Assembly: GCA_030538235.1 (NCBI GenBank)
Contig: JAUNUJ010000003.1
Location: forward strand, 186,001-250,000
Direction: 5' to 3'
DNA from: Alcaligenaceae bacterium
GTDB lineage: Bacteria > Pseudomonadota > Gammaproteobacteria > Burkholderiales > Burkholderiaceae_B
DNA: 64,000 nucleotides
Shown here: piece after piece, positions 61,601 through 63,827 of the stretch
How positions within the stretch are numbered: the first letter of the stretch is position 1
How the letters are laid out: every line of letters starts with the position of its first letter
Made by a program: the position numbers and the translations under genes
The notes under the pieces: generated by a model
What the model saw: only the letters and a program-made list of their open reading frames with translations
Told to the model about the DNA's origin: nothing
Database searches by the model: none

Positions 61601-62023
61601 TTATACTTCCTCAATACGGTAGGAGTGCGTTACTTCGGCCGTTTTGTTGAGCATGGCTACGGCTGAGCAATACTTCTCGTGACTCATATTAATAGCACGT
61701 TCTACAACATTTTCCTGTAAACCACGACCACTGATGATGAATTCAAAATGAATTTTGGTGAAAACCTTAGGGTCGGTGTCCGCACGTTCTGACGTGATGT
61801 TTAAACGACAGCGACGAATGTCTTTGCGACCGCGCTGTAAAATCATCACCACATCATAAGCAGAACAAGCACCGGCACCACTCAGGAGCGTTTCCATGGG
61901 ACGCGGGGCGAGATTATTGCCGCCACCCTCAGGAGGTCCATCAACTGTTAGTGTGTGACCGCTGCCGGTGTGACAGACGAATAACATACCATCCGGGCCA
62001 TTCCATTCGACTGAGCATTGCAT
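61601..62023 (-). CDS. OsmC/Ohr-family protein (YhfA-like)
   Basis: 140 residues. The two conserved thiol-peroxidase cysteines are present in GACSAYDVVMIL and EKYCSAVAML (~53 and ~117). The family detoxifies organic hydroperoxides or acts on related substrates. The short N-terminus (MQCSVEWNGPDG) and the RPMETLLSGAGAC motif place it with YhfA-type OsmC proteins. First gene of the osmC-thyA-folA operon. Confidence 0.9.
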   Translation of the reverse strand: MQCSVEWNGPDGMLFVCHTGSGHTLTVDGPPEGGGNNLAPRPMETLLSGAGACSAYDVVMILQRGRKDIRRCRLNITSERADTDPKVFTKIHFEFIISGRGLQENVVERAINMSHEKYCSAVAMLNKTAEVTHSYRIEEV

Positions 62024-62204
62024 AATCTGATTTCCTCTAGAGTGTTAAAAGTGTTGTTTAGCTATTTATTGTTTTTATCTTGAATATAACTAATCATTAT
62101 GCCTTTAGACCATAGGAATAACAATTGTTTGAAAGAGGATGTGTGGCTAGGCATCAAATTTTCTGCTTAAAAATCGGCACATTAAATACCTTTCATGGTT
62201 CAAA

Positions 62205-62227
62205 TGTCAAAAATACAACATTTGACA
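62205..62227. repeat. Inverted repeat upstream of the small-RNA promoter
   Basis: TGTCAAA-N9-TTTGACA is a perfect 7-bp-arm inverted repeat (62205-62211 with 62221-62227), about 30-75 bases ahead of the predicted -35/-10. It could be an activator or repressor site; no protein can be named. Confidence 0.4.
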
Positions 62228-62256
62228 CTTTTGTTAGGGTTTTCATTAGTTTTTTC

Positions 62257-62285
62257 TTGCAACGCAGCAAAACTTTTGATATTAT
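62257..62285 (+). promoter_or_regulatory. Candidate promoter of the small RNA
   Basis: TTGCAA (62257-62262), a 17-base spacer, then TATTAT (62280-62285, 5/6 to TATAAT). Start predicted near 62292. Confidence 0.5.
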
Positions 62286-62291
62286 TTAGAT

Positions 62292-62452
62292 GTTGTCGAG
62301 TTGATAGGTTTTTTGTTTTCAGCTCGCAGGAATTTAAACTGAAGTCTCTTTTTGTCTCCTTATCGTTTGGGGCTTCAGTTTATGCAGTTGTCTCCTCCAC
62401 CCTCCTCCTTTGGTGGATTTGCCCGGAATCTTTTGATTCCGGGTTTTTTTTT
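62292..62452 (+). ncRNA. Putative ~160-nt small RNA with three anti-Shine-Dalgarno motifs
   Basis: No credible coding frame is present. Three hairpins are evident. SL1 is a 14-bp stem (62335-62348 with 62369-62382) with a 20-nt loop containing TCTCCTT (62355-62361). SL2 is a 6-bp stem TCCACC/GGTGGA (62396-62401 with 62412-62417) with loop CTCCTCCTTT (62402-62411), which shares CCTCCTT with the 16S anti-SD. A linker TCTCCT lies between them (62391-62396). SL3 is the terminator. C/U-rich looped anti-SD RNAs are known as post-transcriptional repressors in Neisseria (NmsR/RcoF) and Alphaproteobacteria (cuckoo RNAs). Identity to a known family cannot be checked here. The 5' end is estimated from the promoter. 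Confidence 0.6.
62422..62452 (+). terminator. Intrinsic terminator ending the small RNA
   Basis: Perfect 9-bp stem CCCGGAATC/GATTCCGGG (62422-62430 with 62435-62443), TTTT loop, then nine T. It lies 257 bases before the next gene, so it does not belong to that gene's coding end. Confidence 0.92.
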
Positions 62453-62623
62453 GGAAACTCAAAAAAGTGCTATGCTTATTCAGAGCTTGGTGCTGAGATG
62501 TGTGTCTATTTTTGTCTATATCAAACTGATGTGACAAGCGTTTTAATCACAAATAATCACTGTTGCAAATTACAATAGATTTTAACGCTTTTAAATTTCC
62601 TAAGCTGTTAGACTTGCAGCTCA

Positions 62624-62708: not shown

Positions 62709-63827
62709 GTGACGGATGCTTGGCAATATCTTCTAATTTGTATTGTGGCCTTTTCGGTGGGCGGTATGATTATCGCGTCCGAGCGTTGGCATGGGCGCTT
62801 TACCGGTGATTCGGATCTGGATAAACCACAAGCCTCTCATGTGCGATCAACCCCACGTATTGGTGGGTTGGCGGTCTTTGCCGGGACGCTCGCAGGGCTG
62901 TTAGTGCTCGGTAAACCTGATAATACGACCTTAAATTGGTTTTGGCCGGCTTTATTTGTATCGGCTATGCCGGTTTTTGTGGCGGGTATCTTAGAGGATA
63001 TTACTAAAGATATTGGGTCCGGTAAGCGTTTGCTCGCGGCTTTTGCCTCGGCTGCTATTGCCTGGTGGCTTTTTGGGGGTGTTTCTCGGGTCGGTTTTAC
63101 CTGGTTTGATTGGGCCCTTAGTTTTTGGCCGATTTCTTTATTATTTACCATGGTGGCGGTGGGTGGTTGTACTCATGCTATGAATCTGATCGACGGCATG
63201 AATGGTCTGGCCGGCATGGTGTCTTGTTTAATTGCGATTTCACTGGCGCTGGTGGCCTATCAAGTGAATGACATGGCTATCTTTGCGATAGCGTTGGCCA
63301 TGGCCTCTGCAGTGTTTGGTTTTTTGGTCTGGAATTTTCCTTTTGGTCGAGTGTTTCTGGGTGATGGGGGCGCTTATTTTATCGGTTTCATGTTGGCCGA
63401 GTTAGCAGTACAGTTGGTGGCGCGCAATCCATCCGTTTCGCCTTTTTATGCCATTGCAGTCCTGTTTTATCCTGTCTTTGAAACCATGTTTTCGATTTGG
63501 CGTAGACGCTTTATTCGTAAAGTACGTGTCGACCAACCGGATGCTTTACACTTACATCAATTAATTTTCAGACGTTTAGTCAGAGTGACCTTTAGTCGCG
63601 ACAGTCGTTACCGTGTGCCGGCTTTATGTAATGCCTTGACGTCACCGTATTTGTGGGTGCTTTGTCTAATCGGTTTAGTGCCGGCCACGATATTCTGGGA
63701 TAATTCTTGGATGTTATGCTTGTCCATGTTGATATTTTCCGGTCTCTATTTATGGTTGTATTCACGCTTGGTTAATTGGCGCTGCCCCCGTTGGTTGTTA
63801 TTGCCCTCGGTATTTAGTCGCAGATAG
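62709..63827 (+). CDS. WecA/MraY-family polyprenyl-phosphate sugar-1-phosphate transferase
   Basis: 372 residues from GTG 62709. About 10-11 hydrophobic helices. Family motifs: STPRIGGLAVF (substrate loop), LEDITKD at the DDxxD position (first Asp replaced by Glu, as in the WbpL-type branch), NLIDGMNGLAG, FLGDGGAYFIGF and the terminal loop HLHQLIFRR. It transfers a HexNAc-1-phosphate from a UDP-sugar onto undecaprenyl phosphate to begin O-antigen or capsule units. The nucleotide-sugar dehydrogenase following by 53 bases confirms a surface-polysaccharide cluster that continues beyond the window. Confidence 0.92.
   Translation: MTDAWQYLLICIVAFSVGGMIIASERWHGRFTGDSDLDKPQASHVRSTPRIGGLAVFAGTLAGLLVLGKPDNTTLNWFWPALFVSAMPVFVAGILEDITKDIGSGKRLLAAFASAAIAWWLFGGVSRVGFTWFDWALSFWPISLLFTMVAVGGCTHAMNLIDGMNGLAGMVSCLIAISLALVAYQVNDMAIFAIALAMASAVFGFLVWNFPFGRVFLGDGGAYFIGFMLAELAVQLVARNPSVSPFYAIAVLFYPVFETMFSIWRRRFIRKVRVDQPDALHLHQLIFRRLVRVTFSRDSRYRVPALCNALTSPYLWVLCLIGLVPATIFWDNSWMLCLSMLIFSGLYLWLYSRLVNWRCPRWLLLPSVFSRR

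Follow-up and report, generated by a model that had tools for sequence, protein, structure and literature searches.

A PhaR-type palindrome at the promoter of an Oligella-lineage RF02278 small RNA: a candidate link to carbon storage

The segment from position 62292 to 62452 of the 64,000-nucleotide stretch of Alcaligenaceae DNA analysed here (the window) raises two questions: what kind of RNA might it encode, and what could switch that RNA on and off? A preliminary description proposed a trans-acting small RNA (sRNA) with anti-Shine-Dalgarno (anti-SD) motifs, comparable with the global repressor sRNAs of Neisseria and Alphaproteobacteria. The kind of molecule was well chosen; it is no new regulator, as the feature is a member of a known sRNA family. 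Its promoter carries a palindrome, absent from that description, which resembles the published binding motif of PhaR, a protein that senses granules of stored bioplastic. We consider it quite likely that the locus specifies an sRNA of the S17/ncS27 kind, processed and assisted by Hfq, which would block translation of transport and catabolic genes and whose promoter would be repressed by PhaR.

Family membership and structure of the RNA

A covariance-model scan against Rfam, a check suggested in the preliminary description, found RF02278 ('Betaproteobacteria toxic small RNA') at 62389-62451, with 66.5 bits against a gathering cut-off of 50 and coverage of model positions 1-64 of 64. It is the sole Rfam match over gathering in the whole window; whether Rfam models the anti-SD sRNAs of Neisseria and Alphaproteobacteria was not checked. 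Judged from its sequence, the feature near certainly belongs to RF02278, and it is best explained as the Oligella-lineage orthologue of S17 and ncS27, two of the RF02278-type RNAs published from Burkholderia, Herbaspirillum and Bordetella (PMC4603805, PMC7011215, PMC5688073, PMC11722255). One of the nine RF02278 matches listed for the window's own genome (2.43 Mb, 14 contigs) exceeds the cut-off. The eight weak ones (13.0-21.6 bits) were rejected; matches below the cut-off also occur in 13 of 14 control genomes. Of 200 genomes from the window's family, 186 carry RF02278; for the order as a whole the count is 158 of 250 at an E-value of 0.001 or better (93 of 250 over the cut-off). The same genome encodes Hfq (PF17209, E 4.6e-30).

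In the named collection, the neighbouring gene has its nearest relatives, at 93-95% identity, in Oligella ureolytica, O. urethralis, an uncultured Oligella and Alcaligenaceae assemblies. The core string of the sRNA lies upstream of the glycosyltransferase relative in 20 of 25 related loci; the remaining five have no RF02278 match over gathering, and one of them, L011, has only 459 nt upstream. The 5' block that holds the two anti-SD sites of the family is identical in its letters to that of other members, in a comparison made by eye that did not contain the letters of S17S. A different arrangement was seen in genus g43, where, among the matches listed, the sRNA gene stands in tandem duplicate, about 380-540 bp apart, in L055 (G043), G073, G166, G178, G189 and G198.

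The promoter-like site, stems, anti-SD loops and terminator of the preliminary description are all present. The segment folds at -55.5 kcal/mol, as compared with -32.8 (standard deviation 3.2) for 200 dinucleotide shuffles, none of which was equally stable (z -7.02). All elements lie on the forward strand. A sigma70-like promoter, TTGCAA-N17-TATTAT, occupies 62257-62285 (-35 at 62257-62262, -10 at 62280-62285, 17-bp spacer) and would place the transcription start around 62290-62292. The RF02278 body (62389-62451), which is S17S-like, comprises a linker with anti-SD site 1, TGTCTCC(TCC) at 62389-62398, and a hairpin whose 10-nt loop CTCCTCCTTT at 62402-62411 forms site 2 on a 6-bp stem (62396-62401 / 62412-62417); both sites are unpaired in the computed fold. 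The intrinsic terminator (62421-62452) has a 10-bp stem (62421-62444), a UUUU loop and nine U; the nine T stand at 62444-62452, and the first of them is paired in the stem. Between 62030 and 62720, one terminator was found against a shuffle mean of 0.4, and three promoter-like sites against 1.7. The promoter is not significant on its own count; its position is kept in relatives within the family genomes.

Could this structure instead belong to its neighbours, as an attenuator or 3' untranslated region, or be a chance fold with no role in trans? The sRNA lies about 260 nt upstream of a gene on the same strand, for a glycosyl transferase of family 4 (62709-63827, PF00953), which speaks for such a reading. 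A strong terminator stands before that gene, the promoter is conserved in relatives, the body matches RF02278, and homologues are made as separate transcripts; together these make a cis-acting or chance origin scarcely credible. The connection with polysaccharide genes drawn in the preliminary description holds as far as position goes, and no further. On the other side, on the reverse strand, lies a gene for an OsmC-like protein (61601-62023, PF02566). An open reading frame (ORF) of 127 aa over the sRNA (62195-62578) was presumed to be mechanical, since both promoter and terminator lie within it; no test aimed at it was made. An AGGGTTT element at 62235-62242 was considered and left aside: 43 of 117 family genomes have one ahead of the sRNA, and its position varies among them.

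Two further hairpins precede the body. The 5'-most (62293-62329), which comes from the fold, was not in the feature list of the preliminary description; it has two pairs in which at least one sequence is changed on both sides, and some of its pairs are broken. The second (62335-62382) is specific to the genus and consists of a 14-bp stem (62335-62348 / 62369-62382) with a 20-nt loop that carries an extra anti-SD sequence, TGTCTCCTT (TCTCCTT at 62355-62361). We aligned six distinct Oligella-type leader sequences, and the 14-bp stem is retained in their consensus fold. For five of its 14 pairs, both sides are changed in one sequence or more; seven pairs are invariant or differ on a single side, and in three pairs, one of which also belongs to the double-changed five, one or two of the six cells are broken. 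Over the whole consensus fold, both-side changes occur in 7 of 47 pairs. The preliminary description had looked to compensatory changes and CCTCC loops in related sequences: the changes are there for those five pairs, with broken cells in three, and the CCTCC loops are kept. Five sequences have (T)GTCTCCT in the leader loop and one has TTCTCCT. Six of seven members of the genus carry an extra TCTCC in the leader, the exception being G057, which has no PhaR; among the other family genomes 1 of 110 carries it. The leader and upstream region of the G057 sRNA are quite different. This genus-specific leader hairpin with its third anti-SD loop appears to be new. Because the extra TCTCC copies the start of site 1, the leader loop may be a third pairing site, which would be confined to the long form of the RNA.

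A PhaR-type palindrome over the -35 box

The candidate operator, TTCTTGCAACGCAGCAA, lies at 62254-62270 on the forward strand, and its palindromic core TGCAACGCA (62258-62266) overlaps the -35 box. The left half, TTGC, is part of that box and the right arm lies outside the hexamer. The site matches 13 of the 14 specified positions of the PhaR motif of Ralstonia eutropha, YTKNTGCRNYGCANMAR (PMC12849132), for which the published rule allows up to three mismatches. In the window's own genome, TTGCNNNGCANCAAAA is matched without mismatch only at this site; with up to one mismatch it has 29 matches, as compared with 11 for the reversed pattern. PhaR itself (PF07879 and PF05233) is encoded in this genome behind phaB, which in turn lies behind phaC. 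Eight of these loci were inspected, together with the phaR locus. One site precedes a phasin gene that has three TGCNNNGCA palindromes upstream. Another palindrome of PhaR type (L067, near 1507) lies between a gene for a short-chain dehydrogenase, which may be PhaB-like, and a carbonic-anhydrase-like gene named by eye. The other sites fall within or between unrelated genes. As a candidate operator on an RF02278 sRNA, the palindrome appears to be a new feature.

Conservation was examined in 117 family genomes: 120 loci were prepared from the 186 RF02278-positive genomes, and G073 and G130 (short upstream sequence) and G135 (no search string) were excluded. A palindrome of the form TGCNNNGCA stands on the -35 box of a promoter with a 16-18-bp spacer in 111 of the 117. 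The stricter TGCRNYGCA occurs 20-250 nt upstream in 108 of 111 PhaR-positive genomes, with the 250-nt limit having been picked after the distances had been seen, and 20-150 nt upstream in 93 of 111; each of five rearranged control palindromes occurs in 0 or 1 of 111. Six genomes have no TGCNNNGCA on the promoter, and three of these have no PhaR. In G057, from the window's own genus (L312, C3:145000-156000), phaC and phaB are followed directly by other genes without phaR, and there is no operator site. G107, which is a single contig, and G119 have neither PhaR nor PhaC; their sRNA promoters still have CTTGC and a -10 box without the GCA right arm, which the sister genomes compared retain.

The same association was found in other families of the order. 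PhaR (PF07879) was matched in 171 of 250 order genomes, and genomes outside these 171 are counted here as PhaR-negative. From the 158 sRNA-positive genomes, 103 copies were examined, best matches first; L204, L208 and L219, with cut 5' flanks, were excluded from the TGCRNYGCA count, which left 100 copies from 82 genomes. Among PhaR-positive copies, 46 of 69 have the palindrome 20-150 nt upstream, as against 1 of 31 PhaR-negative ones; by genome the figures are 44 of 58 versus 1 of 24 (Fisher p 8.5e-10, uncorrected for relatedness). Rearranged palindromes occur in 0 to 3 of the 69 and 0 to 1 of the 31. The palindrome itself was found at least once in 17 of 18 PhaR-positive families, f21 being the exception, and in one of nine PhaR-negative families; the latter, f36, is represented by one 85% complete assembly, a relative of which has PhaR. 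The contrast is also seen within families, between PhaR-positive and PhaR-negative members: 4/5 versus 0/1 in f9, and 1/1 versus 0/4 in f43.

Besides the choice of the 250-nt limit, a number of observations weigh against PhaR as the regulator. Among PhaR-positive family genomes, G106 and G157 are one base off and the palindrome of G086 lies away from the promoter. G119, one of the cases of joint loss, is a 200-contig assembly. Three of the six PhaR-less family genomes with the sRNA (G185, G192 and G193) retain the palindrome. PhaR is probably missing from two of them through assembly, because contig ends cut their pha operon (just after phaC in G193, inside phaC in G192). G185 (86% complete, no PhaC) is not explained by a contig end. 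The palindrome is absent in three of the four PhaR-less genomes left after the contig-end cases, and the family-level association of PhaR with the palindrome (Fisher p 0.0014) comes from a small test with counts entered by hand. PhaR is present in 181 of 200 family genomes; of the 14 without the sRNA, G125 alone has PhaR. Nine of the other thirteen measure only 0.7-0.9 Mb, so that this co-absence of sRNA and PhaR is confounded by genome reduction. Outside the family, 14 of 58 PhaR-positive genomes have no palindrome in the copies examined. Family f21 has both PhaR and the sRNA and shows the palindrome within 150 nt upstream in none of seven genomes (G219, G265, G308, G346, G382, G412 and G441); control of the sRNA may differ there. 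The looser TGCNNNGCA occurs within 350 nt in 7 of 31 PhaR-negative copies (2 on the promoter), versus 54 of 72 PhaR-positive copies (34 on the promoter). Finally, the level of S17 in Bordetella is reported to track BvgAS (PMC11722255).

These observations leave room for a member of the S17/RF02278 family whose -35 palindrome serves a different regulator or simply reflects an unusual conserved promoter. The operator evidence is consensus matching with a motif from R. eutropha, the TTGC half belongs to the -35 box and is retained even in G107 and G119, and the f21 genomes and the BvgAS response of S17 fit such a reading. The right arm speaks against it. It lies outside the -35 hexamer and is kept by 108 of the 111 family genomes with PhaR; members of three genera that have no PhaR do not have it, and neither do the copies examined from eight of the nine PhaR-negative families. 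The genome's own phasin gene also has the same core. We regard another regulator, or none, as unlikely; repression of the sRNA by PhaR is a prediction with good comparative support.

Candidate targets and the proposed circuit

The anti-SD mechanism is established for homologues, and by homology it probably applies here. The motif GGAGGAGA followed by ATG within 1-11 nt has seven matches in the window's own genome. The reversed pattern has two, and two of the seven are not starts of long ORFs, which also counts against the proposed function. The five long ORFs encode a rhodanese-like protein, an NMT1-type transporter protein, a member of the fumarylacetoacetate-hydrolase family, a carboxyl transferase (all by Pfam) and a gamma-glutamyltranspeptidase-like protein (by eye). 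Their starts pair with the 5' part of the sRNA at -17.6 to -23.8 kcal/mol, in genes that were selected for that motif. The predicted targets fit transport and catabolism weakly, and transporters and catabolic genes, suggested as possible targets in the preliminary description, agree with those of published homologues.

Might the transcript act mainly as a brake on growth, a general inhibitor of translation with little choice of target, as the family name 'toxic sRNA' suggests? The loop CTCCTCCTTT, which we take to resemble the anti-SD of 16S rRNA, would suit this role. Homologues overexpressed in E. coli or B. cenocepacia slow growth; this includes Burkholderia ncS27, whose level goes up in biofilms and stationary phase as well as under starvation and in glucose medium (PMC5688073, PMC4603805). 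Against it stands the S17 mutant of B. pertussis, in which 92 genes are reported as up in the abstract and 91 in the results; 70 of these genes carry sites (PMC11722255). In addition, none of the 58 ORF starts in the window (mechanical ORFs of at least 150 aa) reaches -17 kcal/mol in pairing with the 5' part. Pairing with many GGAGG ribosome sites, as first proposed, therefore looks too broad beside the five GGAGGAGA genes, and we hold a mainly general brake to be quite improbable. Targeting of all genes was likewise unsupported: the 58 starts have a median of -8.5 kcal/mol, as compared with -9.2 for the reversed sRNA, and two versus one reach -15. Nor did the pairing energies support a feedback on translation of the phasin, of the kind put forward for MmgR (phasin start -5.1 kcal/mol; phaB -13.8).

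In the circuit that we propose, the sigma70 promoter would give a transcript of about 160 nt, which by homology would probably be cut near 62388 to a stable RNA of about 65 nt. The linker and loop of this short RNA, both CU-rich and unpaired, would with the help of Hfq pair with GGAGGAGA-type ribosome sites, and so block translation of transport and catabolic genes. In a cell without polyhydroxybutyrate (PHB), PhaR would sit on the -35 palindrome and repress the sRNA promoter. When PHB granules form, PhaR would leave the promoter, and the sRNA would damp carbon uptake and breakdown while carbon is stored. If this is true, granule formation would titrate PhaR and release the sRNA, which would close ribosome sites on genes for carbon uptake and catabolism throughout the order. 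PhaR control might also explain why these RNAs are raised in biofilm, under starvation and in glucose medium, where a cell may plausibly be storing carbon.

Comparison with known systems

RF02278 sRNAs are widespread in the order and their switch is left open in the S17 and ncS27 papers, so that the conserved operator names a candidate protein and a candidate signal. The ncS27 authors state that the regulator of accumulation of their sRNAs is unknown to them (PMC5688073), and Fig. S3 of the same paper gives a common upstream motif for three homologues, which may equal the palindrome described above. Our literature search, which covered few subscription papers, found no published link between PhaR and an RF02278/ncS27 sRNA, and for Cupriavidus necator a 2021 review states that what riboregulation does in PHB synthesis 'remains undeciphered'.

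S17 of B. pertussis is reported as a 190-nt RNA with the promoter TTGCAT-17-TACTAT and a start 7 bp downstream; RNase E cuts it to 67 nt, and its level is lower in an hfq mutant (PMC11722255). It represses BP2158, with pairing proven by compensatory mutations; two further reporter fusions were down about 2-fold and two were unresponsive. Its transcription in vitro is independent of BvgA, and the authors postulate a repressor. The RNA described here shares with S17 the RF02278-type region with sites 1 and 2, a -35 box of TTGCA type, the 17-bp spacer, a nine-T terminator and an adjoining glycosyltransferase gene. It differs in its predicted length of about 160 nt, in the Oligella-type hairpin of its leader, which adds a third anti-SD loop, and in its other neighbour, which is OsmC-like here and coq7 at S17. 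The 'double-hairpin RNAs' of B. cenocepacia, ncS27 (bdhR1), ncS03, ncS05 and ncS62, belong to the same Rfam family and have two hairpins and CU-rich unpaired stretches, and ncS27 is processed (PMC5688073, PMC4603805). Burkholderia has three to five copies per genome, whereas one exceeds the cut-off here, and three of the four Burkholderia RNAs have no long leader. Herbaspirillum seropedicae SmR1, a PHB producer, carries four RF02278 copies.

On the side of the operator, phaP1 of R. eutropha, which PhaR represses, shares the motif and likewise has a site adjacent to its -35 box, where PhaR binds; it differs in being a protein-coding phasin gene, and purified R. eutropha PhaR has been used in published gel shift and footprint assays (PMC12849132). 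A parallel in wiring is MmgR of Sinorhizobium meliloti, an Hfq-dependent sRNA with a PhaR palindrome in its promoter that is repressed by PhaR (AniA), as proposed here. PhaR sites of S. meliloti, including that of mmgR, have the same kind of core, and PhaR binds the mmgR site in vitro (PMC12542648, PMC8401924). MmgR belongs to the alphaproteobacterial alpha-r8 family, and its known effect is on phasins and the amount of PHB; the likeness drawn here is one of wiring. We lean towards the view that PhaR and an RF02278 anti-SD sRNA form an old carbon-storage circuit across Burkholderiales, in which PhaR would be the repressor postulated for S17, and which would parallel the rhizobial PhaR-MmgR pair by separate origin.
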